Positions 1 through 18,011 of a stretch of 64,000 bases of DNA are shown in pieces. The DNA is from Bryum argenteum (Eukaryota; Streptophyta; Bryopsida; Bryales; Bryaceae). The position numbers were made by a program, and so were the translations under genes. Position 1 is the stretch's first letter; the number at the start of each line of letters is the position of its first letter. The stretch is taken from contig CM073323.1 in the NCBI GenBank assembly GCA_037043015.1, positions 25,386,758-25,450,757 of the forward strand, in the 5' to 3' direction. The notes below the pieces were generated by a model. It was not told the origin of the DNA. It searched no databases and saw nothing but the letters and a program-made list of their open reading frames with translations.

Positions 1-2178
1 AAAAATCATTGTAAGCCTTGATCACCAAACGCAATCATTTCTAGTGGTTCGTATCAGATTTTCGTACAAATCATTCTCTACGACGCCAAAGAAGAGATCA
101 AGTAGTTTGCTGAAGAGAAGGAATTTTGTTTATCAAAAACCAAGTATTTCATTTTAGTTGAGCTGCTTCTAATACTATATAAACCGGGATACATATCATT
201 GTAAAGAGGAAGTAGAAAACATTTCTAGCGGAATAAATCTCGACATTGTAAATCGTTGTCTTCTCTAATTGTTGTACTTTCATTGTGCATTCATCAAATA
301 GAACAGCACTGTGACAACTATTAAACGAAATAAAGACAATGGTAGTGAAACTCTTTACAAATTCTTACTTTCAACACATATTCTACAGTATTTACATGAT
401 CGAGATTCTCAAATATAAGTATTGATATTATTCAAACTCTTGATTTTTTCTTTGAAATTCATGAACTTCGTCGCTGTATTTATGTATTCACAATAAAGTT
501 TCGTTATAAATTACTAACTCAATTATAAATATATTTGTCTGTTTATCGAAGAACAACAAAATTTCGATATGAGTTTGAAGAATAATGAATGATTTCAGGG
601 ACTGATTAATCATGAACAACATTATAAACTGCTACAAATTTTCTTATTTTTAGAATGTAACGATAATCAATGTATTAAGATTTGGCATTTTATATCTTGT
701 AGCATGTAAATTTAACTTTATAGCCATTATTTATAGGTACTAATGTTAGAATTTCATTTAAGCAGTACTAGCATGTTCGTTAAATAAGTTTCTCAACACT
801 TAAGTGTTTTAAATTTGAAATTGCACTTGTGCAGTCTTCCACACTTCATCCAATATTCATGAACCACATAGTCTTAAACTTTGATTTTTTAAATATTATT
901 GTACTTAATAATTTAATATCAACTTTCCTTTTAAGTACTTCAGTTATAATCATATGAAAATATGAAAATTTCATACTAATTTATATATAAAGTATCTCTT
1001 GAATGATAACTCTATTCAATATCAACACATTTTCAAATAACAGGTGACTGTATTATATAATCTATTGTTAGATAATCTATTAAGTAACTCCTTTAAAGTA
1101 ATATACTATGAAATAAATATAAAAATTATTCTAATCAATAGCTTTTTGTTAGCAAATAATATGTGTATTAAAGGATTTGTTTATTCATAGTTATCTACTA
1201 AATACTAAATTTATAAGATATTGTATGTTGTGTTCATCAAGTAATTTTTATATCTATATTAATATTAATATTTATACTTATATTGACATTAGTATATAAA
1301 ATAAATAGTCTATAAAATTTCCATTACTTTCAAATTATCTTAATTCAATAATATTTTCATTAATACAAATAGTATCCAAATAATCTATTCCGAAATAATA
1401 AATATTTTAAATCCCTAATTTCAAATAATAAATTTATATAAAATACAATCATATCTTAGAATATATATGTATTAGTGACTAAATCCGAAATAAAGTTCAT
1501 AAAATAAATACAATTTGTATTGAATAATGTATTTATTCAATAATATATGTATTATTGTCTTATTCTCAAAAAATATATTCATTTAAAGTGTATTGTTTAT
1601 TAGCGACTAATACCAAATTAACCTCTTTTCAAAAGATTAGATCCTTATTTTATTCTCGTGTGTGTGTGTGTGTTTTTTTTCTATACATGTAGTGATTGAG
1701 AGTGATTATTTTGATTTCTAATTTAATAAAAATATATATTTCTTGTTTAATAGCAACTCTTCTCATTAGGTACTAATCGCTTAGATCTTTTCCTACTTTA
1801 CTCTATGTGACTAGAGTACCAGAAGAATATTCTTGTATTTAAGAACTTTTGCTATATATTTATGGTTATATTTGTTTATAGTGTCAGACTATTTCTTGTA
1901 CTTGGAAATATTGCTCATCTGAAGATAATACATACTTTAAAAGTATAAGAAATTAATATGTATGGGAAAGTACGTTGTACAAAAATAGTATATTAGTTGT
2001 ACTCTGGTAATCAAAATATTACACAACAATTAGTCAATTAGTCAAATTGAATAAAATTTAGTCAAAAAATTAGTGATAAAATCAGTTAAAATGTAAAGAA
2101 ATTAGTCAAAAAATTAGTGAAAAATTTAGTTAAAATGTAAAACAATTTACACAATTGAATTTCAAATTGAAAAAGTTG
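1..2178. other. AT-rich intergenic DNA, no gene seen
   Basis: Strongly AT-rich with no convincing reading frame on either strand. It holds a (GT)n microsatellite followed by a T run at about 1658-1680. An imperfect direct repeat built on attagtcaaa / agttaaaatgtaaa lies at about 2030-2150, just before the palindrome at 2179. No gene or complete transposon was recognised. Confidence 0.6.
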
Positions 2179-2280
2179 CCATGCCCATGATTATGTGCAT
2201 GGGCATGGTCATGTACATGGCCATGTATGTTCGCATGACCATGTACATAACCATGCCCATGCACATGATCATGGGCATGG
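2179..2280. repeat. 102-bp imperfect palindrome made of CATG units
   Basis: Two 42-base arms (2179-2220 and 2239-2280) are inverted copies with about two mismatches, separated by an 18-base spacer. The tract contains about 15 CATG tetramers. It lies where AT-rich DNA to the left gives way to GC-rich DNA to the right. Open frames through it (Met-rich in one frame, His/Gly-rich in another) follow from the repeat and are not evidence of a gene. Confidence 0.85.
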
Positions 2281-2469
2281 AAATGCGCCTCATGATTGGG
2301 TCACCATGTACCATCACAGCCGCCATTTCCTCTCCTATCTCCTCCGTTGCACCTCATTTGCTCTCGCTGCGTTGTTTGTCTTTTACTGCTCTCGCTGAGT
2401 CGTTTCCTCCATTGCTGAGTGTTTTGTCGTTTTCTGCTCTCGCTGTTTTCTGCTCTTGCGTTTGGCGGG

Positions 2470-3060
2470 CGACAGTTTTTGCCGCCATTTCACGTTCGGC
2501 GGAGGGGAGCTCGTAGGCGGGAGTTCTTTTGCGCGACTCTTTTGCCGCCATTTTCATTTGGCTCGTTCGGCGGAGTGGAGTTGGTGTGCGGTTTGCTGCT
2601 GTCGGGGAGTGCACCTTGTGAGTGTCGGAGCATCAGGCGTGGTGTCACTCGGACCTTGTTCGGCAGAGGGGAGTTGTCCGCTGATTGAAGCGGAGGAGCG
2701 CATTTTCATACGGGTTCGGCGGAGGGAGTTCACCGGCGTATTGAAGGGAGGGAGTTCACCGGCGAAGGGGTTCGGCGGAGGGGAGTTGTCCGCTGATTGA
2801 AGCGGAGGAGCGCATTTTCGTACGGGTTCGGCGGAGGGAGTTGGTCGGCTGATTGAAGGGAGTTCACCGGCGTAGGGTTTTGGCGGAGGGGAGTTGTCCG
2901 CTGATTGAAGCGGAGGAGCGCACCGACGTACGGGTTCGGCGGAGGGGAGTTGCTCGGCTGATAAAAGCGGAGGAGTGCACCGGCGTAGGGTTTAGGGCTC
3001 GTTTCCGGCGGTGTGAGTCGGACAGTGGGGGTCGGTGCATCGTCGCGTTACCGGGTTGAG
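2470..3060. repeat. GC-rich leader with ~110-bp tandem repeats
   Basis: Base composition jumps to GC-rich. The motif gagttgtccgctgattgaag recurs at 2671, 2783 and 2891 with periods of 112 and 108 bp. Each copy is preceded by a ttcggcggaggg-type block and followed by gcggaggagcgca. Diverged half-copies occur near 2837 and 2948, so the basic unit is probably about 55 bp. The block sits just upstream of apparent splice donors, so it may be the promoter or 5' leader of the decayed gene that follows; that is inference. Confidence 0.6.
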
Positions 3061-3111
3061 GGAGCTGCTACTTCGGCACTAATTTTTTTGTGAGGTGTTC
3101 GTTTGGCGCCG

Positions 3112-3195
3112 GCGGTGTGAGGTGCTCGTAAAGCGGTGTGAGGTGCTTGTTTGGCGGTGTGAGCTGCTTGTTAGGCGGTGTGATTTGCTCGTACC
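3112..3195 (+). repeat. 21-bp tandem repeat, four units, coding-compatible
   Basis: Units beginning gcggtgtga start at 3112, 3133, 3154 and 3175, an exact 21-bp period. Because 21 is divisible by three, the + frame stays open and gives seven-residue repeats of the form RRCEVLV / KRCEVLV / WRCELLV / RRCDLLV. The open frame runs to a consensus donor (cag then gtaagaaac) at 3239/3240. It could be a 5' coding exon or leader of the gene to the right. Confidence 0.6.
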
Positions 3196-3438
3196 GCAGT
3201 TGGGGTCGGCATCGATTACTGAAGAAGAGGTTTCTCAGGTAAGAAACATGTTCGACCCCAGATTTGCAGATTATGAAAGAATGTTTGAATTGTTAATTTG
3301 TGAGGTACCTCGCCAGAAAAGTATTAAAGCATTTTGAAATTAGGGTTTAGTAAATGAATTGTGTTCAATTCTGCAATTCGATTTCGATGATGAGGAAAGC
3401 GAGCATCTTAATGATATCAACTGCTGAATCTCTAGTAG

Positions 3439-3759
3439 GACTTGGACAGGGAGGAGATTCAATTGGTGGCTGCACGTAGGGATTAGCGTAATCTGAAGAA
3501 GAAGAGTGAGATAAGGTAAGACAATGGCCTTTGTTACAATCAATCTGTCATGCTGTTTGGTAATTTGTTTCGATTTGATTCTTGTTTTTGTTGTTCTGCA
3601 TTGATTGTCATGTTCTTTTCTGTATCTTACAGATTCTAAAGCGAATGCTGAATGAGAAGTTGCAGATACATTTGTGGGAGATAGAGTTGCTGAAGAGCGG
3701 GTTCGAGATTCAATTACTGCGAACTTGGAGATACTCGTAGATACAAGAAGAATATCGAG
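3439..3759 (+). pseudogene. decayed 5' exons of the unknown gene
   Basis: Two exon-like blocks have good splice sites: 3439-3515 (acceptor ctctagtag, donor gataag then gtaagac) and 3633-3759 (acceptor atcttacag, donor atcgag then gtaagg). Each has one frame that reads like protein, for example DLDREEIQLVAARRD in the first and EVADTFVGDRVAEERV in the second. Each of those frames also contains a stop codon, and the two do not join in phase. I read them as eroded coding exons. They could instead be untranslated leader exons. Confidence 0.3.
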
Positions 3760-4119
3760 GTAAGGTGGCACAAAATTTGTGTTTGAATCTTTCAGCCATG
3801 ACTTGTTATGCTTTTTTGTATCTTCTATTCTCGCTTTCATTGTTGTGCATTCTACATAGCACTTCCATTTATATTTCAGTGCTGATACTATGACTTGAAG
3901 CTCGTACATGTTTGAATTTCCCGTAAGGTGTAGCATGTTGGATTGCTTAGTATTGCTAAAAGAAAGCCCACGCATCCGATTCCAACAAAGAATTCAGTAG
4001 CCTCTGTTTCCAATTACAAATGTATTCCATAAGCATCGAATAATATACAACAAATGCTCACAATCAAACTTAGTTCCTCACAGACCTCCCCAATCCATAA
4101 CCATCACATTCTTGTGCAG

Positions 4120-6310
4120 GTCAAGGCCAAGCGAAGTTCATCATAGAAGTCCTTTGCCAAATCTACAAGAAAAATGGCCGACAGGTAATCATCATCATCA
4201 GCAAACCCACTAAGTCACTTGCAAATGGATTTGAGTCCTCTGCATTAGTTCAGCGCTAGCAAACTAGAAACATGTATAGTACGCCGCGTACATACAATGT
4301 ACTACAGTTTAGCTCGACTCGAGCTAAACTGTAGTTGACAGCACTCATTACAGTTTAGCTCGAGTCGAGCTAAACTGTAGAGGCTGCTGTCATTTACACT
4401 TTAGCTCGACTCGAGCTAAACTGTAGTTGACAGCACTCATTACAGTTTAGCTCGACTCGAGCTAAACTGTAGTTGACAGCACTCTTTACAGTTTAGCTCG
4501 AGTCGGTCTAAATCAGAAAGACCGTTTGTTCTTCTGATTAGCTCGACTCGAGCTAAACTGTTGGCATTACAATACTGCTGTCAACCAAATCGGCTACCCT
4601 TTTATCAACGAATATCAAATGACAACACCAGTAAAGGATAACGTTCACTAACATGACGTTACAATCTATATAGAATAAAAGTAGAGCTAAGGCCAAATAA
4701 ACCTACTAAAAGAAAAACCTACACAACAGCAGCCACAGTTTAGCTCGACTCGAGCTAAACTGTCGTTGACACAGGCATCTACAGTTTAGCTCGAGTCGAG
4801 CTAAACTGCATGTACTAGGATGTAAGAATCGTGCTTCAAGGGAATCGATTTCGGTACATTGAACTAACTCAAACTTTATAATTACAGTCAAGAGAAGGCA
4901 CGAGTTCGAGAGGCCCTCCAGCACTTCTTCAAACTTAGGCCGCTGGACTCTGACGAAGACGATGGCGACGATACGAAGCAGTTGGACTGCTGGGAATTCA
5001 AGGACCCATCGAAAGTGCTTTCGTGGTCAGCGAGGTGGATCCCATACACAGCATTCCTCACTCTTGTCGTCACATACGAAGGAGATGTTGAAGACCCCAT
5101 GTGCGTTGACATTGACTCCAAGCTCACTGACTTCGACCACGAAACAGAGAAAGAAGTCATAGCAACGTGCACAACCTTCAAAAATAATGACAAGGACTGT
5201 GCCTACAACTACGCCATTCTTATCGATATCAAGCAAACTCAATTCAACTTGGGGCAGTTGGTGGAGAGCTTAGAGGCGTCCAGTTTCGATGATATCAAAA
5301 CAACACTGAAACAGGATATGCTTACTAAAGCATGGCAAACCAAACAGGGGGGAGATCTCAAGGCCAAGCAGCTCGCAATAAAACTGCGATCTGTAGTCTC
5401 GGCTCTAACTCATGCTGACATGGCGGCGAAGACGATACACCTCAAGGGAAAAGCTCCACTAGAGGATGCGGGCCGACCGCAATCGGGAGCGCGGCTTGAG
5501 AGGGACACCATCTCGTCCGCAACGTGCGTCACGGCCGGCCCCCACAACCACCACGACCTCTGACTCACCCGTACAGAGGAGAGAAGCTCCCGTGAAGAAG
5601 TCTGCCGAGGCGAAGAAGAAAAAGAGCATGCTCATCCCGGAATAGGATGCTTTAACGGCTTTGAACGATGCTATACAATGCATTCCAAAGAACGTTAACA
5701 CCGTGGAGGAAATTGACTTCGAGAACGTCAACCTCATCTACCGAGTTCTTCACGGACCGTCAGGATCAAGCGTCTTTCCTAAACTCGACACGAAGATGGA
5801 GATCGACACAATGAAGATGATTGAGTCCCCTCCACAAAGGGACAATTCGGGCACTCGAGAAGAGGGAAAGACGGACTTGATGAACTTTCTCATCAATATG
5901 CCCGACAGTCGCGAAAGCAAACGCTCTGCGTAATGCCTAAATTGGATGTCAAACCAAACGGCATTGAAGATATGCGGGGCTCATGAGTTACGGATTATCA
6001 ACGGCCAAAGACAATGTTGCCGCCTCAAAGCGGATGTTTGAGTCCAAAGTTCCGAAAACCATTCGCAAGGATTTTGGTGTGGTGCGCCTTCGTAGTCCGG
6101 GACGAAGGATGAAGCCAAGCTCCGCAAAATATCGGCGTTCTATAACAGTGAACCATTTCACTCCGTTTAAGCCAACATGGGCATCGAATATCCTTGCCGC
6201 CCGTACCGTGTGGGAGAACTACGGGCGTCCAGCCAACAGACATGCAGCAGCTGGGGTGGCAGACAAACGAGTGCAGCGGCGCGTCTTTGTCGCAATTTGC
6301 AAATTTCGAC
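4120..6310 (+). pseudogene. broken 5' half of an unknown spliced gene
   Basis: An exon at about 4120-4182 reads GQAKFIIEVLCQIYKKNGRQ, then a donor. After a 705-bp intron full of palindromes, an exon from 4888 encodes an acidic stretch (LRPLDSDEDDGDD) and runs open to about 5458 (TLVVTYEGDVEDPMCVDIDS and onward). Near 5460 the protein-like reading moves to frame 3. That frame has a Thr-rich, Lys-rich linker (EAKKKKS, possibly a nuclear signal) and meets an in-frame TAG at 5643-5645. Further frame changes lie between 5930 and 6190. The last part (ending LSQFANFD) runs in phase 0 to the donor at 6311 and joins the intact exon at 6535. The family is not recognised; at least two frame lesions and one nonsense codon make this a pseudogene as it stands. 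Confidence 0.5.
4305..4808. repeat. palindrome array inside intron 4183-4887
   Basis: Copies of a 27-bp palindrome lie at 4305-4331, 4351-4377, 4397-4423 (one mismatch), 4443-4469, 4736-4762 and 4782-4808. A further copy is split by inserted sequence between 4489 and 4560. Each arm is CAGTTTAGCTCGA and the single central base is C or G. Copies are spaced by short runs such as tagttgacagcactcatta, so part of the array spread by local duplication (period 46 bp). Confidence 0.9.
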
Positions 6311-6373
6311 GTAAGTATTACCTCATGCCGCATCGTATTTCTAACTTCTGAATTTGCAAATAATTTCCCGTTG

Positions 6374-6433
6374 CAGTTTAGCTCGAGTCGAGCTAAACTG
6401 GAATGGCAGTTTAGCTCGACTCGAGCTAAACTG
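6374..6433. repeat. two palindromes inside intron 6311-6534
   Basis: Two exact copies of the 27-bp palindrome (6374-6400 with central G, 6407-6433 with central C) are separated by six bases. The host intron has a consensus donor (gac then gtaagt at 6311) and acceptor (ttgcattgcag ending 6534). The intron joins phase 0 to phase 0. Confidence 0.9.
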
Positions 6434-6534
6434 CCATTACAGTTTCAAGAACACCAGATTCCCAGAACACCTGATTCCTAATTTCGGACGCATACTTCCA
6501 ATCGGAAATCTTACATACTGCTGTTGCATTGCAG

Positions 6535-8630
6535 AAATTTGTTGACTCTATTCGGCATAGGTTCGCCATGATCGATGTTGCCAAGGCCCAAGTAGAGGTG
6601 AAGAACAAGGTCTTGTCTCTAACAAATGAGCTAAAGATCATCACCTTCCCCGATGATCTCTGGAACCTATGGGCAGAGTTGATCGGAAGTGTCGCGCAGG
6701 GGACCCTTATCGACCCCTACTCTTTGAGGCAGCTGTGTGACAAGCCAGGGTTTAAACCAGATAGCGACCAAACCCTGTCAAGAGAATTTTTCAAGAACCT
6801 CGGTAACCTTTCAGAGACGGACCACAGAAAACTATGTACACACATGCTCAATAAGTCGGGTCCGTCGAGGAAACTGGAATACCCGAAGGTTACTTTGAAA
6901 CAACCAGTAACCCTCCTTGAAGATTGCTACTCCGTCAAAGAGTACGTTGAGCGGTTGAAGCGGAAGGCGACCGCCCAGCTTCAGATCCACAAGATCAGAC
7001 CCCAACTCGGAATCTTCAAGAACAACGAGTTCGACGTGGATGCGTGGAAGAAGTTTAAGAAGGACTACCACGTCGCGAAGGCCTCCAAGCGCGCACTTCT
7101 GGAATGGGGAATCCCTGACAAATATTATACTGATCAGAGGCAGACCCAACACAGGAATACCAGCTGCGAGGATCTCTCGCCCTACGCTAAGAGATTCTTC
7201 GAGGTTTTCCTGGAGAAACGCGAGAAGTTCGTCGGCCCCACGGGTAGTGTAATATTCCGTTCCTTCCACCGCAGAACACCACAGAGGCTCGGCGAATGGC
7301 CTGAGAACAAATGGCCAGCAGTTGCTCCTGAGATGAACGTTGGAATCATCGACTTCAGATTGATTCCGGGAAGTGGTAGCACCTCCGCAGATTCCTCCCT
7401 TGAGCACCCATTCTTCGAAATGTTCATGGCGATCTTATCGTCCCAGAACAAGCCAGCTCTCAAGGATATACCTTGCTGGTTCTTCATCTGCGGGGATGAC
7501 AATGATTACCAGCAAGTCGAGGCGTTCGCGAGAAATCCTGCCTACTTCCAAGGGGCAAAGTATAAGCTGATTCCATCAATGTACTATCCGTCCCCGCACG
7601 AACGGATTGCTGGATTCAATGCGAAAGCCAAGCAAGCCTCGCAGCCCGTGCGTCTTCTCTTCATGATCAGGGAAGACATAAAGCTCGCAAGATTGCCAGA
7701 GACCGAGTACCGCGCGCCAAAGCACGCGCTTTACGAGAAGCCGCGGAAGTACAACGAGTCTCGGTATCACATGTACCCGATTGAGTTGAGGATGGATTTT
7801 TATTTGCAGGTAATCCAGCTATTTTGCCACGAGCAGGAGAATATTTTTCTTGTCTACGCCGGCGGAAAAGCAGTATGCGCAAGCGTGGTAAGCTTTCTTA
7901 CAGTTGACCTACTCTATTTACGCTCCCTACAGTTTAGCTCGAGTCGAGCTAAACTGTACTGCAGTTTAGCTCGACTCGAGCTAAACTGTATGACACTTCA
8001 AGTCGAGCTAAACTGCCATACAGTTTAGCTCGATTCGAGCTAAACTGTCATGCTTGTTTCCAACCATGTTCGCTCCTGCTTCAGCTCTATCTGTAGTCTA
8101 AGCTGCACCTTCTTTTGTAGATGTTGTCTCTCGATGCCTACTCCATATTCGATGCCGAAGACAAAGAGGACATCGACCAAGCATACAACGATGGGCTTAC
8201 TCTTGATCCCACTGACTTCTCCGTGAACGGCTACTTCGTCGACAAAGGCGAGTATCCGGAGGTCGGGGCTATGCTTTTGAAGGGCAAGCGCAAAGCTGTT
8301 GCGTCTTTGGATGACGACCCTCTCGACGATGAGGCGGACGTTCCCGACCGGGAGGACTCTGGATCAAGCGGAAGGCAACTTCACGGCGAAGGCAGCACTT
8401 ACAGCCTTGGTTCCGCAGGAGATGACGAAGAGCAAGACATGGAAATTGACACGACCCCGCAGACACCGCAAGAGTCGCGTACCGCTCCCGGGCGAGGAGG
8501 AGGCAGGGGAAGTGCAAAGCGGAAACGAAATCCCCTGTCGAGGGACTCACCTTCAAGTAGGTTCAAGGCCGAGGAGAGTGCTGTGTTAGGACTAAGCAGC
8601 AATATAGGAGTAGAACTGCGCGGCAGTTAG
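6535..8630 (+). CDS. intact 3' half of unknown gene; possible methyltransferase-like fold
   Basis: Exons 6535-7887 and 8121-8630 join in phase 0 (CASV then MLSLDAYS) and give 620 open codons to TAG at 8628. The first ~200 residues are charged and not recognised. The stretch NVGIIDFRLIPG, then CWFFICGDDND, then YEKPRKYNESRYHMYPIELR, then NIFLVYAGGKAVCASV followed by IFDAED is in the order expected of beta-class N4/N6 DNA methyltransferases (motif IV, later motif X with KP, then motif I with an FxGxG-like loop). However, the DPPY and FxGxG residues are not conserved, so this is a fold-level guess. The C-terminal ~150 residues are acidic and then basic (GRGGGRGSAKRKRN), likely disordered and nuclear. 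The upstream half is broken, so function is doubtful. The last ~15 codons may be LTR-derived sequence. Confidence 0.5.
7930..8047. repeat. palindromes inside intron 7888-8120
   Basis: Full copies are at 7930-7956, 7962-7988 and 8021-8047 (one base changed next to the centre). A half copy (agtcgagctaaactg) lies at about 8001-8015. The intron is bounded by gtaagc at 7888 and cttttgtag ending 8120, and joins two open exons in phase 0. Confidence 0.9.
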
Positions 8631-9230: not shown

Positions 9231-10858
9231 GACATGTCTGCTGCTGACTCATGAACCACGAATGTTTTCGCAACGGCCTCTCAACGTTGGCCTCTCAACG
9301 CGGGGTGATAATTCACTAGTCTTGGCTCCCTGAACATGGCACCGCAACTTCTGATCAGACAAGAGCAGCGTTGCTGATGGCATGAGCAAGAGTTTCCGGA
9401 GCTGTCTCCAGGAGCATGCGATTTTGGCCATCGCATTCGTAGCATCGGCCGGTGTCATGTCCTGCGCAACATTCAGAGTCACCGTGAACGGGACTCCGGC
9501 ATTGAGCGACGAACGGTGATACCAGGGCAGGAAGGTGGAAAGGGATGCCGGGGAAGCGGCTGAAGACGTACCATTTACAATTGGAGTTCCGGGCGGCGTT
9601 GATGCGCGCAACTATCTGCGATGCTGAGGGAAAGCTTAGCAAATACTAGTGCGACAACGCCGACGTATGTTTAGCAAGATCAATGATCCGCACAACTGAC
9701 CGGCTCGCTGATTTGCATATGTTTGTCGAACAACTCGAGAGGATCACCGAGGAACGGACCTGCGATTTCAACTTCTCTGAGAAGTTCGGCGCCGACATCG
9801 AATACGCTGCTTCTCCGTTCGACCATTTCCTGGAAACCATGCTTCAGTTAGTGGCGGACCGGATTGCAGCGATGCGACGAGCAGCGACAACCGCCGCTAC
9901 GAGGTCCAGCAATTAGCGAACTGGTGCGGTACGACCTCTTTCCGGTTGACGAGTTTGCCCCAAGTCCACCAGTTTCGGATCTCGGCAAACGGCCTGCTGC
10001 CAGCGAACGAGCCGAACGGCCTGACGGGAATCACCACGATCACTTCTGCGGCTAAGGAGTAGAACCGGAAGTTCACGGAGACCGTCGAACTCTAGATTGG
10101 ACTACGACCCCCGGACAGACAAGCGTTCCAGTGGCTCCGTGAGTCACTGCCACCGCAGCAAGAGCCAGCGGAGGTTTCGGGAGCCAGTTGGCCGGCCAGG
10201 CAACGGCTAGCCTGCTACAGCAGCGGGGGCGCGCAGTCAGCCAGGACCGCCCACCTGCCACCGCAGCAGGGAAGGATCCACGGCGGCCAGTCGCCGTGCA
10301 GTCCGCACAGGCATCGGCGCATGCTTCACCGGAGCGCCAACACAGACCATTTACTCGGTAGGAGCGACGGGCGCCAGTACAGAGCGACCGCGGGCTTGGG
10401 ACCGCGGCAGGACCGGTGACCGCGGCGATACCTATTTCCGTAGCACCCCAAGACCGCGGCGGTACCCATCTCCGTGGCATCCCAAGACCGCGGCGGACCG
10501 GTGACCGTTTCCATGACCAAGGTTACCCACGCCTTCGTTTCCGTCGCGACAGGGACCCGGCGGCAGTGACCGATTGAGGTTGGACAAGCGGGCGCTAAGG
10601 AGTTTTCTACTTAGATGATGCAAGGACTGACGAATCCATGAGTTTGGGCGTCATAGACCCTGCCACTGTGGGTCCCCGACCTTGGGTCCAACCAGGTCGT
10701 ATTCCTCAAGCCACAAGGGTGCCGTTTCCGCAGCCGCATAGTTTGACAGGATTACCCACATCTCAAATGCTTCTACTTCTAAGTCACATGCGGCTGTTGG
10801 AGGGTACAAGATAGGAAGACTCAGTATTCCAGTATAAACAGCAAGGGAGAACTACGCC
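9231..10858. other. GC-rich stretch upstream of gypsy gag, no confident gene
   Basis: No recognisable domain. Two unsupported frames are present: 9249-9611 on the minus strand (120 codons) and 9683-9916 on the plus strand (77 codons, containing HMFVEQLERITEERTCDFNF). Either could be a fragment of an unknown gene. At 10390-10510 a gaccgcggcgg-type motif repeats several times. The stretch may be the long leader of the retroelement, but no LTR pair confirms that. Confidence 0.4.
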
Positions 10859-11956
10859 ATGGAGCTTAATGAGGCACCTTTAGTCCCGGATCCGACGCCA
10901 GCGGGGAGTGCAGTTCCGGACTTGACTGTTTTCGTTCAGCAACAACTTCAAGCCTTGCATGCAGTCCAACAACAGGTCCAAGGACTACATGCAGCAATTC
11001 CCCATATTGTCCAAGAATGTATGAGCCGCAGTACCATGATTCAAGGGCCACCGGTGCTACCCCCACCGGTGCATCCCCAGCCCGGCCTAGACGGGCCGAC
11101 AGGACGGGGAGTAACAAAAATTGCGCGGCCAAAGGAGTTTGCAGGAAAAAAGGGCGGCGACGTTTACCGCTGGCTCGCACAACTTCGGCTGCAGTTTGAT
11201 AACAACCCGCTAGGGTATGGGACGGACAGACAAAAGATCACCTGCGCGTTATCCTATATGACTGGAACGGCGGAGGGATGGGCGATGCCTCTCCTGCAGG
11301 CCCTCGATGAGAAGAGGAGTCACCTACTCCTAGCTTCTTATGAGGACTTCCGAGCAGGAGTGCTTGCTGTGTTTGGAGAAGTTGATCGCAAAGGGCACGC
11401 ACAAGACCGACTTATGGCTCTCCGCCAAACCACCGTCGTGGCACCTTACATAGCGGCTTTCAACGAGCTAGCAGTCCAGGTCGGCTGGTGCGAGGAAGCC
11501 CTTATTACTCACTTCCGATAAGGCTTGAAGACTGAAGTACACTATACGATAGCCACTTCAGAGGAGCCACCTACCACCCTCCAGGGATGGATGTCGAGAG
11601 CTTCTCGGATTGACGAGCGGCTTTGGGCCATGCGACCTAAGGGAGGGCGGTCCTCGACTACACCCGCGGTTTCAGCTTTCCATCCAGGACGACGTTTCTC
11701 ACCACTTTCCACTTCCACGACGGGCCCTGTCCCTATGGAGCTTGATGCCCTTGCGCCCATTCCTCGGAAGTCGACGGCTATGGCAAGGACAGCGGCGGAA
11801 CGGCAAGAGTTTCAACGCCAAGGCCGATGTTGGGGGTGCGGACAACAAGGCCACCCACGGTCCAGGTGTCCCACCAACCCCTCAAAGCCTCTTTCTTTTT
11901 CTGCCACTGAGGCGGAAGGTGTCAACGACTCGGGAAAAGGAGAAGCCCGGGACTGA
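10859..11956 (+). pseudogene. gypsy gag with internal nonsense codon
   Basis: The frame from ATG 10859 encodes a capsid-like region (KIARPKEFAGKKGGDVYRWL and onward). It is interrupted by an in-frame TAA at 11519-11521, just after ITHFR. The same frame resumes at once and runs to TGA at 11954. It includes a CCHC zinc knuckle, CWGCGQQGHPRSRC, with C-x2-C-x4-H-x4-C spacing. The frame is identical on both sides of the stop, which points to one point mutation. Programmed read-through is possible but less likely given the other damage in this element. Confidence 0.85.
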
Positions 11957-12018
11957 CACCTCTGACTCAGTACCCGGGCGCATGCCAAACGGCTAAGACG
12001 GCAACGTACAAGCAGGCT

Positions 12019-15000
12019 TTGACCGACGTACCCCGTCTGAAAGAGGAACCTCTCTTTTTACGTGCAACGACCGATCCCGGTACGCACTTAACATTGGCAG
12101 GACAAGCCAACGGGCGGCCGGCTACATTATTGGTGGACTCTGGAGCTACTGGCGTGTTCATACATTCTACTTTTGGTGCTGCTAGTAACGCCACGGTTAC
12201 ACTGAAGCCCACACCTCGTGAGGTCCGTGTGATCGACGGACGGGTCATCAACACAGGACTGGTCATCCATGAGGCCACTTTTCAGCTGGTGATTGGGGAT
12301 CATGCGGAGATTCTCACGGCGGATATTACCAACACCGGCCGCTACGACTGCGTCCTTGGCACTCCTTGGCTATGGCAACATGACCCCGACATCCGGTGGT
12401 CTACCGGGACGGTTCGGTTTACTTCCGTCTTCTGCAAAGAGCATTGTTTACCGACCTCTGCTCCCTCCGTAGTATCCGCCATCCGACCTACTCTGTCATC
12501 TCGCCCAAAATTTCGGCAAGCCACGAGAGGGACTGAACTTTACTCATTAGAGATTTCCGAACTCTCAATGATACCGCCACGAGCGGCCATGACACTTCCC
12601 CTGGAATATGCCGACCTCGAGGGTGCGTTCAGCGAGGAGGCTTCTAATGAACTACCACAACACGGGCCTTCTGACATGAAGATAGAGTTCAAAGACGGAC
12701 AAGAACCTCGCAACATGGGACTCCGTCCTATGTCCCTTGTAGAATTAGAGGAATTGCGCCGGTATCTCGACGAACATCTCGGTAAGGGATGGATTCGCCG
12801 ATCTCAGTCACCAGTATCGGCGCCCATCGTGTTCGCGAAGAAGAAAGATGGAACCCTCCGTGTCTGCATTGACTACCGGAATCTCAATAAGGTTACCATC
12901 AAAAACCGGTACCCATTGCCCCTGATTCCTGAGCTGACGGATCGCCTCGTCGGTGCTAAGGTGTTCACCAAGCTTGATATCCGCCAGGCGTACCATCGAG
13001 TTCGGATGGCTCCAGGACATGAGTATAAAACGGCCTTCAAGACCCGAATCACCCGATACGGCCTTTATGAGTATCTGGTAATGCCATTTGGCCTCACCAA
13101 CGCACCAGCCCAGTTTCAGGCCCATATGCAGAGCATATTTGGAGACCTACTTGATATTTCTGTCGTGATCTACCTCGACGACATATTAATTTTCTCCAAG
13201 ACATTGGAGGAGCATCGACCAGTGGTTCGGGAGGTTCTAAAGCGTCTCCACCAACATGGGCTTTACGCCAAACTGTCTAAATGCGAATTTCACAAGGAAG
13301 AAGTGGAGTTCTTGGGACTTGTGGTCTCGAGCCGGGGACTTGCGATGTGCAATGACAAGGTGGCTGCCCTCAAGGATTGGCCTACACCAAAGACCCTTCG
13401 TGAAGTTCAAGCCTTCCTGGGATTCGCCAACTTTTATCGGAGGTTTATCACTGACTATTCACAGATAGCGGTCCCTCTTACACGACTCACTAAAAAGGAC
13501 CAACCGTTCGCGTGGACTCCGGCAACAGAAGCGGCTTTCAATGAACTCCGTCGTCGTTTTACAGAAGCACCTGTACTCCTCCACCCACAATTTGACAAAC
13601 CATTTATCCTGGAAACAGACGCTTCGGATACAGCCACCGGTGGCATATTATCTCAGTATGGCCCTGACGGGCTCCTACATCCATGTGCCTATCGCAGCTC
13701 GAAGATGTCCGCAGCGGAGGAAAACTACGACATTTACGACAAAGAACTCCTGAGCATTGTACTGGCTTTTCAAGATTGGCGCATATATCTCGAAGGCTCT
13801 CCTCATCAGATTCGGGTAATCTCCGACCACAAGAACTTGGAACAATTCATGACAACAAAGGTCTTAAATCGCCACCAAGCACGATGGTCCGAACTCCTCT
13901 CAGCGTACAATTTCGTCATTGAACACCGTCCTGGAGCTCTCAACGGACGTGCAGACATGCTCTCCCGGCGATTTGACGCCACTACTACGGACAACAATAT
14001 ACGACCTCTGTTACGGTTGGCCATGTTGGAGACGGTGGAACCAGTATGGAGTGACGACCACCTCTTTCAGCTGATTAGGGAAGCCACTCCAAGAGACCCG
14101 GTACTCGGACCCATTCTAAGTTTTCTGACAACAGGCCACGGGGAAATCCCGGCTCAATTACGACGTCAACTTCACGACTACACCCTTTCCGATGGGCTGT
14201 TATTTGTCCGAGGGGCGATAATGGTTCCCGACGACGAAGAATTTAGACGGCAGATTCTCCGCTCGCGCCACGACGCACCAGCTGCTGGACATCTGGGGCG
14301 CGCGAAGACGGTGGACCTAGTGGCGCGTACATTCTACTGGCCGTCACTGACCAGATACGTACACCGTTATGTTGACGGTTGTGACCTCTGTCAAAGGTCC
14401 AAGCCCACGCAACACCCTCGTTACGGGCTTCTCCAGCCTATTCCGGCCGCGAATGCTCCATGGCAAAAAGTTACAACGGATTTCATCGTCAAGCTCCCTC
14501 AAAGCGGCGCCTATGACACTATAATGGTAGTCGTCGACAAGAATACAAAATTGGCTCACTTCATTCCTACTACCGAAGCCATGGACTCCGCCGGTGCGGC
14601 CAAGTTATATTTACAACATGTCTGGAAGCATCATGGTACCCCTACTGAATTGATTTCTGATCGCGGCGCAGTTTTCGTCTCCAAATTCATGCGGCGTCTT
14701 CATGAGCTTCTCCGCATTCGACCAGCCCCAACAACAGCATTTCATCCTCAGTCGGATGGTCAGACAGAACGGGTGAGCAGTATTTGGAACAAATACTACG
14801 CATGTTCACCGCAAAGCGCCAGGATGACTGGGCTGATCTCCTTCCGGTAGCAGAATTTGCTTAAAATAATTCCGTTCACTTTGCAACAGGTTTTTCTCCC
14901 TTCTATGCGACGTACGGCTATCATCCAACCATGTCTTTCAGCAAACCTACGACCTCAGTTGTTCCAGCTGCTGAAGATAGGGTCCGGGTCTTACACCAAG

Positions 15001-16043: not shown

Positions 16044-18011
16044 TCACACAAGAGATAGCTTTATCTCTACTTCATCACCCGGATTTGAATCCGGCAGAAG
16101 AACATAGTTCCTCCCTCGCCAAACATTTTCGTTCATTTGATTCTTCATTTGATTGTTCACGGTTACTGTCTTGTACGAAAAGGTGATCGTATCGTCCACG
16201 TCGTCGTCGTCATCAGGCTCGTACTTCATTGATACCTTGAGCTTGTACTTCAAGGGTTCACTACCAAATGATGAACAACCGGAGATGCTGACCGTATGTT
16301 TAATTTCTATAGAATCTTCGGACTCTTGAAGTTGTCAAAGGTCCTCAATTTCTAAGGGATAGACCTGATCGGCTGTACAGTCGGGTACAGAAATAATTCG
16401 AACTGCATTTGAAGGCAGTTTTTGAAAAAACTTCAAAATGTGCCTGTATACTCAAAAATGATCGGAATTGCAATCCGTAAAAGGCGTTGGAACCACATCA
16501 GAGTGTTTTACACTATCACTGCAAAAAAATTCTTCTTTTTTGTAATTTTTTTTTAAAGAACTAAAACTCTACATGTTCCATCCACAATTGACCATTGTCG
16601 CTTTGTGCTTCAATTACAATGTTCATTTTCAGTTGCAAAATTGATATGAGTGCCATAAGTTGTTCTTTAGCTACTTGAGCTCATGCTTATTGAATCATTG
16701 AAATGTTCCTAGTTTTTTTCTTGGGTAGGAGGAATGTCTTAGAATGTGCTTATGACTAGTCAATTTTTCTCAAAACTTTGTGAAGCCATTCACACCACTA
16801 GAAATGTCCTACAAGGACTTAAAGGATGGTTTGATAAAGTTAGGGTGATTACTTTCAAAAGCTCATTGCCAAACTCAAATTCTTTTAGCATTCTCGTCGA
16901 GTTTAAATCAAAGTTCAATTTCACACCTTAAGTGTTGATTGGAAACTTATCACAAAACTACTCCAACTCAGAAGTTTAGAGGGAGCAAGTATTCTTGAAC
17001 ATTCAACAATGAGCTCAAGTAGCTAAAGAACAACTTATGGCACTCATATCAATTTTGCAACTGAAAATGAACATTGTAATTGAAGCACAAAGCGACAATG
17101 GTCAATTGTGGATGGAACATGTAGAGTTTTAGTTCTTTAAAAAAAAATTACAAAAAAGAAGAAATTTTTTGCAGTGATAGTGTAAAACACTCTGACGTGG
17201 TTCCAACGCCTTTTACGGATTGCAATTCCGATCATTTTTGAATATACAGGCACATTTTGAAGTTTTTTCAAAAACTGCCTTCAAATGCAGTTCGAATTAT
17301 TTCTGTACCCGACTGTACAGTAGGCATGGACAAGAAGTAGTTCCTTTCCTGCCGTGACCAGAACATATTGCCATTTCTTCTCCAAGGACATGTTGAATTT
17401 CACACTTCTAGTTTCTGGATGAAGTTGCACTGTCACGATGCTATGAATACTCTCGAAGTGTTCCGGGATTCCACACTTGGGTCCCGTGTGCATGCATTCT
17501 GGAAGTGGGCATTGAAGTGATCGATATTCACATGAAGTAGCATGTTTTGTTTTTTCACTAAGTTTCATCATTTCGGTACACCCTTCTGAGAAATGGACGC
17601 ACTTGATCCGAAGAGCCTCCACAATCTTTTCCACCGCCAAATTCCGTAAGTGCGCGAAGGGTGTTGCCCGGCAGAAGGGGCATTCTTTCCCCACGAGCTT
17701 CTCACAACAAGGTGCACATACTGTGTGACCATTTCTGCACTGAATCACGAATCAAACACTCATTATCCACATTCTCATGCACGTTCATCATCTTCAATTT
17801 GGAAGTTGCACGAATAAAATTACTATGGTTGTATGTATTCAAAGTCAACATTGCAAGCAGACACAAACTCAAGGCTTACACTGTACTTTCATCTGCATTG
17901 CTCGCATACGTTTGAGAAAAAGAGGATTACCTGATGGATAGGGGGAGAGAGGAACTCATTGCATAGAGGACACTGTAATGTCTCTTCATCAAATTCGTAG
18001 TTTTGCGCCAT
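16044..18011 (-). pseudogene. SINA-like RING E3 ligase gene split by a transposon
   Basis: Exon 1 is 18011-17931 (27 codons; EETLQCPLCNEFLSPPIHQ) and exon 2 starts at 17739 (CRNGHTVCAPCCEKLVGKEC). Together they complete a C3HC4 RING, followed by the SIAH-type zinc finger (CVHFSEGCTEMM, then CEYRSLQCP). At 17320, after LLLVHAY, a 948-bp fold-back element interrupts the gene. The rest of the substrate-binding region continues at 16372-16044 (GCSSFGSEPLKYKLKV, ending EIKLSLV and stop). An in-frame TGA near 16335 in the C-terminal part is a second lesion. The intact relatives nearby are 258-262 aa. A truncated RING-zinc-finger protein could still be made from the 5' part. Confidence 0.85.
16373..17320. 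mobile_element. 948-bp fold-back element with ~314-bp inverted termini
   Basis: The left arm 16373-16686 and right arm about 17007-17320 are inverted copies with only a few mismatches. Both start CTGTACAGTCGGGTACAG. The ~320-bp centre has no convincing protein. No clear target-site duplication is visible (tgatcgg on the left, taggcat on the right). High arm identity suggests recent insertion. The superfamily is undetermined; Mutator-like or fold-back elements are candidates because of the arm length. Confidence 0.9.

Follow-up and report, generated by a model that had tools for sequence, protein, structure and literature searches.

Palindromes in the introns of a transposon gene

We analysed 64,000 nucleotides of the Bryum argenteum genome (GCA_037043015.1, contig CM073323.1, positions 25,386,758-25,450,757 of the forward strand), the whole of which is called the window below. 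Its left part holds the right-hand portion of a copy of an ~18-kb DNA transposon, and the introns of one transposon gene, which we call gene 2, carry arrays of the 27-bp palindrome CAGTTTAGCTCGANTCGAGCTAAACTG. A sequence-only reading had described about a dozen such palindromes in three introns of a decayed gene, with none, by eye, elsewhere in the window. Introns 1-3 are predictions based on the coding frames, on splice ends and on relatives. L015 is the window copy with the DNA to its left, and L028 and L032 are other copies.

1..8583, plus strand: right-hand part of a transposon copy, matching L032 from 1161; 1-1160 presumably belong to it; left end at L015:3918
4174..4184, plus strand: presumed exon 1 of gene 2 (ATGGCCGACAG), read from the sequence, GT donor following
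4185..4887, plus strand: intron 1, GT..AG, seven palindromes and one degenerate copy
4305..4331, unstranded: palindrome, 0 mismatches, intron 1
4351..4377, unstranded: palindrome, 0 mismatches, intron 1
4397..4423, unstranded: palindrome, 1 mismatch, intron 1
4443..4469, unstranded: palindrome, 0 mismatches, intron 1
4489..4515, unstranded: degenerate palindrome, 5 mismatches, intron 1, relaxed search
4534..4560, unstranded: palindrome, 2 mismatches, intron 1
4736..4762, unstranded: palindrome, 0 mismatches, intron 1
4782..4808, unstranded: palindrome, 0 mismatches, intron 1
4888..6310, plus strand: exon 2, broken in the window copy (tblastn, L028 exon 2 translation matching in three frames)
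6311..6534, plus strand: intron 2, GT..AG, two palindromes
6374..6400, unstranded: palindrome, 0 mismatches, intron 2
6407..6433, unstranded: palindrome, 0 mismatches, intron 2
6535..7887, plus strand: exon 3, open over 451 codons; N6-adenine methyltransferase fold modelled for residues 234-451
7888..8120, plus strand: intron 3, GT..AG, three palindromes and a half-site
7930..7956, unstranded: palindrome, 0 mismatches, intron 3
7962..7988, unstranded: palindrome, 0 mismatches, intron 3
7989..8015, unstranded: half-site, 8 mismatches over 27, intron 3, relaxed search
8021..8047, unstranded: palindrome, 0 mismatches, central T, intron 3
8121..8583, plus strand: start of exon 4; DNA homology to other copies stops here, with a weak translated match to 8792

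The palindrome was found 12 times in the 64-kb window at up to three mismatches, always inside 4305-8047 (ten copies without mismatch, one with one and one with two), compared with 0 in 100 dinucleotide-preserving shuffles. The count and the confinement to the three introns thus stand as first described. Widening the limit to eight mismatches added only the copies at 4489 (five mismatches) and 7989 (eight, a half-site ending at 8015), against a mean of 0.2 in 20 mononucleotide shuffles, and the 64 kb scanned held no further palindrome outside 4305-8047 at this limit. The core is TTTAGCTCGANTCGAGCTAAA (21 bp), often lengthened as CAG...CTG to 27 bp, and is of odd length. Spacing inside the arrays is mostly regular, at 46, 33 or 32 bp, which is a mark of local duplication.

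The three introns had been mapped well from the sequence: GT..AG ends fit all of them, the first starting at 4185, two bases from the 4183 given. The description of the gene as decayed holds for exon 2, which is broken, but exon 3 is open and the gene is a transposon gene. Exon 4 gave 40 listed matches genome-wide (best 40 of 143 candidates), one being exon 4 itself and 39 being 88-97% identical to it, and exon 3 gave 98 match pieces (best 94 of 1064 candidates). No Pfam match above the cut-off was obtained for those gene 2 exons that were scanned, hence no DUF1985 or DUF287, and exon 3 had no match in phages.

An 18-kb DNA transposon with a DUF7869 gene

We compared ten copies of the element, namely L015 and nine others, leaving out the fragment L034 (C23). 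In L032, the element ends lie at 1321 and 19399, 18.1 kb apart, and bear terminal inverted repeats (left AACCCCATATTCGTTATATTTGG, right ..CCAATATAACGAATATGGGGTT) that agree over 26 bp at 96%. A 4-bp target-site duplication flanks both copies in which both ends were seen (CTGG in L032, CTAT in L020). By its inverted termini and target duplications the element is a Class II (terminal inverted repeat) DNA transposon. The genome holds 116 exact terminal 20-mers.

From left to right the element carries a DUF7869 gene on the minus strand, a stretch of ~7 kb, the four-exon gene 2 and a phosphatase-like gene. The DUF7869 gene of the window copy lies left of the window (L015:4366-7284), is open over 973 codons and matches the domain at E 1.1e-41. 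DUF7869 is a domain of unknown function, and we take the protein as a putative transposase; its structure model is of low quality (predicted local distance difference test, pLDDT, of 31). The DUF7869 frame is thus open in a copy whose gene 2, next to it, has a broken exon 2. In L032, the ~7 kb between these two genes holds no palindrome, and its open frames of at least 110 codons are only repetitive. The third gene, to the right of gene 2, encodes a NIF/FCP1-type phosphatase domain (E 1e-13). In the window copy, blastn found nothing of the right part of the element in the window beyond 8583.

Placement of the palindromes across element copies

The ten copies contain 232 sites at up to six mismatches, 114 of them perfect. 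These are distributed as 80 upstream of the DUF7869 gene, 89 in intron 1, 35 in intron 2, 19 in intron 3 and 9 in the gap between exon 4 and the phosphatase-like gene. Each of introns 1, 2 and 3 carries palindromes in all ten copies. The upstream cluster is present in nine of ten copies, with none in the L018 DNA examined; in the window copy it occupies L015 7332-7815, beginning ~90 bases upstream of the probable DUF7869 ATG. The gap has a palindrome in nine of ten copies, and the window copy ends before it. Palindrome number per array varies among copies, which indicates that the arrays expand and shrink. In the fixed coding intervals of nine copies (39,600 bp), only two palindromes were scored (L022 15775 and L024 13977), and both are in introns of coordinate-shifted copies.

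The restriction to introns seen in the window therefore does not extend to the whole element, whose palindromes also lie upstream of the DUF7869 gene and in the gap after exon 4. An intron-seeking mobile repeat, one of the ideas of the sequence-only reading, was rejected because the sites recur at the same element positions in the copies studied. Within the gap, the non-coding stretch to the left of the fifth palindrome site shows ~0.9% change, compared with 4.8-5.1% in the exons (A/T sites, nine copies).

These positions bear on a possible role in transposition, in which the DUF7869 protein would bind the palindromes to assemble a transposition complex. Many DNA transposons have subterminal transposase sites, and here a large cluster adjoins the putative transposase gene. 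However, the palindromes of L032 come no nearer than ~3.4 kb to the left end and ~2.4 kb to the right, and so are not subterminal, and introns 1-3 of another gene would be an odd location for such sites. We regard this role as distinctly unlikely.

Genome-wide distribution

A genome-wide search, the first check that had been suggested, found the 27-mer 1323 times and the 21-bp core 5878 times as exact matches, and the reversed patterns not at all. The palindrome occurs throughout the genome because its host gene is a transposon gene. An ordinary transposon family, which the first reading had set against its own ideas, thus describes part of the picture, but the palindrome is not a terminus of the element and is conserved beyond one family. 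A miniature inverted-repeat transposable element (MITE) or satellite with this core was rejected: all window copies lie inside one 18-kb element, whose termini differ in sequence from the palindrome.

On contig C1 we counted listed positions within 16 kb of a listed gene 2 match, zones that make up 11% of the stretch. Here, 83 of 88 listed 27-mers were near such a match, the other five having no such match and no listed terminus close by, and 65 of 100 listed 21-mer cores were near one. The remaining positions of both kinds could belong to copies that are decayed or missing from the lists, or to other families, or could stand alone. One such place, C1:1217057-1229248, has an element-like layout as in L032, in which a pair is followed after 7 kb by a cluster and after another 4.3 kb by a single site. 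Dense core arrays at C1:511445-511675 and C1:524208-524939, with 35-bp and ~80-bp spacing and no listed gene 2 match nearby, perhaps represent another family.

C1 makes up 44.1 of 258.8 Mb and holds 84 of the 116 exact terminal 20-mers, far above its genome share. W-centred palindromes number 67 in the genome, and 43 of the 50 places listed are on C1. C1 may be a sex chromosome or another poorly recombining chromosome.

Conservation of the palindrome core

This genome also holds a second family, whose exon 3 proteins are 57-59% identical to that of the window. One of its copies (C1:1054157-1055521, minus strand, 58%) has 27 exact cores among the listed positions: 17 at 1.9-3.7 kb upstream of exon 3, four just upstream, five just downstream and one further downstream. 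There is no core inside exon 3, and the nearest downstream core lies ~10 bases past the point where the protein match ends. By distance, these cores, known from exact-match positions, appear to correspond to introns 1, 2 and 3 and the gap. A third gene 2 group (for example C1:10040321-10041634), outside the earlier match lists, is up to 46% identical to the relative P0017.

Relatives from other assemblies comprised 82 proteins, 28-59% identical and seen as protein only. The palindrome can be read in some of them because gene prediction often ran past the splice site into the intron, and its two readable frames give FSSxRAK and LARxELN. A strict reading was found in 14 of the 82 (41-59% identical), and allowing one residue off gave 23 proteins with 24 sites, at identities down to 35%. 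Shuffling all 82 proteins 100 times produced no strict match and five near ones. All but one of the 24 sites are within 61 residues of the C-terminal end, the last being near the N-terminal end of P0001, before exon 3. Among 46 exon 3 relatives, 26 reach the donor; seven of these show the palindrome in the FSSxRAK or LARxELN reading and three end in LDSS or LESS plus stop, in the third frame. P0021 has half of the reading, while P0024 and P0027, a pair with 68% identity, have a different symmetric reading in common; the variant palindrome deduced from these two had 0 matches in this genome.

An exact palindrome is also found in contig L043, 0.4 kb upstream of a DUF7869 gene, with a nearer one at one mismatch and a farther one at four; two copies with seven mismatches lie on the opposite side of the gene. 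The L043 protein is 65% identical overall (45-68% by part) and its coding DNA 69%, and outside the gene blastn gave only short matches, around palindromes. L043 is filed under a cyanobacterial bin, and we take it to be eukaryotic DNA in that bin since it carries the DUF7869 gene of the element. It accounts for one of three 21-mers in prokaryote contigs; the other two, from Rhizobium, differ in their outer bases (GAT..ATC) and were set aside as unrelated. Viral contigs held no palindrome, and a profile search gave 139 pattern matches, none confirmed. We rejected a virus or phage origin, having found nothing in phages for exon 3 and nothing in viral contigs by palindrome or profile.

Judged from these sequences, the palindrome core is old, having been kept at matching places while the proteins diverged to ~41-59% identity. 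This bears on a self-propagating palindromic mini-element, which would have inserted repeatedly in the non-coding parts of the transposon and been kept by local duplication without function. Variable copy number and the regular 46, 33 and 32 bp spacing would suit it, as would the 35 of 100 listed C1 cores without a listed element match nearby, some of which nevertheless fit the element layout (C1:1217057-1229248). However, the same introns carry the palindrome in relatives at ~41-59% protein identity, the window has no palindrome outside the element, and neutral copies are not expected to stay exact while coding DNA drops to 69%, which makes this origin very improbable.

The element might instead have captured a palindromic site for a host transcription factor and multiplied it to drive its genes. 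Location near gene starts and in the first intron suits enhancers, and the copy number of the arrays varies. Nevertheless, all 12 window copies are in the element with none elsewhere in 64 kb, and conservation of 21 bp over such divergent families appears to exceed the usual need of a host site. We think a captured host site quite unlikely.

Possible roles of the palindrome

The palindromes might act as RNA, folding as hairpins or pairing with neighbours to affect splicing, nuclear retention or small-RNA production. Introns, and hence pre-mRNA, contain 143 of the 232 sites. Both arms are changed in 26 cases versus 5.6 expected, 14 of them complementary and the clearest at L016 12038 and 12218, although several double changes belong to degenerate copies, and the relatedness of tandem copies raises the double-change and pairing counts. 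The three outer base pairs form in 82, 92 and 83 of 100 compared with shuffle means of 78, 87 and 79 (maxima 83, 93 and 84). Pairing 22 bases from the centre occurs in 42 compared with 29 (maximum 40), above all 500 shuffles, but the other 11 of 12 positions past 27 bp are below the shuffle maximum. The readings in P0024 and P0027 also fit palindromes changed on both arms; a general test for peptide-compatible palindromes is permissive, with 72 matches versus ~57 expected. Moreover, the letters themselves are conserved across families beyond the need of a stem, and the upstream cluster may be untranscribed. A scan of the window at Rfam gathering thresholds found 0 known RNA families. On balance we consider an RNA element unlikely, if with slightly more in its favour than a role in transposition or a captured host site.

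A binding site for a factor, perhaps the product of the gene itself, fits best among the three ideas of the sequence-only reading. We tentatively propose, at a little short of an even chance in our judgement, that the arrays bind a factor which the element itself encodes and which controls or de-silences it, in a layout like that of VANDAL/VANC. The palindrome would be a cis-acting sequence of the ~18-kb transposon family, each copy forming a symmetric DNA site for a dimer of an element-encoded protein. The most plausible reader would be the gene 2 product, whose exon 3 C-terminal part (residues 234-451) has an adenine-methyltransferase fold in the predicted structure. Binding over promoter and introns might then keep the element expressed or counter host silencing of its own copies.

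Several observations weigh against this proposal. The double changes and the pairing 22 bases from the centre, both in excess, leave some room for an RNA role, and 35 of 100 listed C1 cores have neither a listed gene 2 match nor a terminus nearby. Transitions at palindrome CpGs (3.9%) are near those at exon CpGs (5.0-5.5%), so these copies show no clear protection from methylation and most of them were probably methylated like the rest; the low change rates of non-CpG palindrome sites are biased, as only copies with at most four mismatches were counted. In five of the 26 donor-reaching relatives (P0020, P0028, P0031, P0034 and P0044) nothing of the palindrome can be seen, and eight that end in V plus stop five codons in are merely consistent with it. 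VANC targets diverge rapidly, which this palindrome, on our comparisons, does not. The link between the gene 2 protein and the palindrome is one that we infer. Where the DPPY-type catalytic motif ([DNS]PP[YFW]) should stand, all 24 aligned rows have DFRxxP instead, and the sole pattern match, SPPL in P0006, is at another place. The gene 2 protein may thus be no working methyltransferase. A PDB sequence search with the gene 2 profile found no credible relative (one match at E 0.91).

The GANTC centre of the palindrome serves as a lead only. In a model that we hold to be improbable, the methyltransferase-fold protein encoded by the element would read the GANTC-centred palindrome or mark it through adenine methylation, and the palindrome would serve as an epigenetic address label across promoter and introns that keeps all element genes active and is conserved as long as the superfamily.

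Comparison with known systems

The nearest known arrangement is the VANDAL21 element of Arabidopsis. As reported by Hosaka et al. 2017 (PMC5735166) and Sasaki et al. 2023 (PMC10398659), its accessory protein VANC21 recognises and binds a short motif and frees members of its own family from silencing. Arrays of that motif, whose units are gained and lost, lie upstream of the transposase gene and within introns of two accessory genes (PMC5735166). Both systems are plant DNA transposons that carry a transposase gene, here a putative one, and accessory genes, and both have mainly non-coding arrays of variable copy number in accessory-gene introns and upstream of the transposase gene. They differ in the site, here an odd-length palindrome of 21-27 bp conserved across very diverged families, there a motif of 9 bases that diverges rapidly. 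The proteins differ likewise, DUF7869 and adenine-methyltransferase-fold proteins here as against VANA and DUF1985/DUF287 proteins as described there. VANDALs are Mutator-type elements (MULEs) with longer target duplications, whereas the present element has a 4-bp duplication and its left-hand gene matched DUF7869 only, no MULE transposase.

In maize En/Spm, the element-encoded TnpA binds repeated, subterminal motifs within En/Spm itself and is able to relieve the methylation of the element; the sites described here are instead kilobases from the ends and palindromic. Compared with CcrM and other beta-class DNA N6-adenine methyltransferases, the gene 2 protein shares the predicted fold without the DPPY-type motif, and the palindromes deduced from P0024 and P0027 would be without GANTC.

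Our literature search, with most subscription journals outside its reach, found no paper on DUF7869 and, judged by titles and the starts of abstracts, none on the palindrome or the element among the results listed; the element itself may already be catalogued in repeat databases. The palindrome letters matched the text of 99 papers, and the ten that were listed seem unrelated on the same basis. What we describe is a VANC-type layout that comes with another transposon, another protein and a palindromic, nearly unchanging site. VANC, as described in the two papers cited above, uses motif arrays in the non-coding DNA of a plant transposon and by them protects no family but its own. If our proposal is true, a second such layout in a different transposon would suggest convergent evolution, and the element would offer a simple test system with one palindrome, thousands of copies and a candidate reader. 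Non-coding sites can stay better preserved in a transposon than the proteins that it encodes.

Other features of the window

A Gypsy-type retrotransposon occupies 10838-14850 on the plus strand, with pol (reverse transcriptase, RNase H and integrase) at 11911-14850 and, by eye, a gag-like frame ahead of it. An inverted repeat of 312 nt, 99% complementary with arms 324 nt apart, is found at 16373-16684 and 17009-17320. Between ~17 and 49 kb there are Sina-type zinc-finger genes (one frame tested, the others by eye) and duplicated segments ~11.5-12 kb apart. Host genes noted besides the Sina-type ones are PPDK and serine carboxypeptidase.

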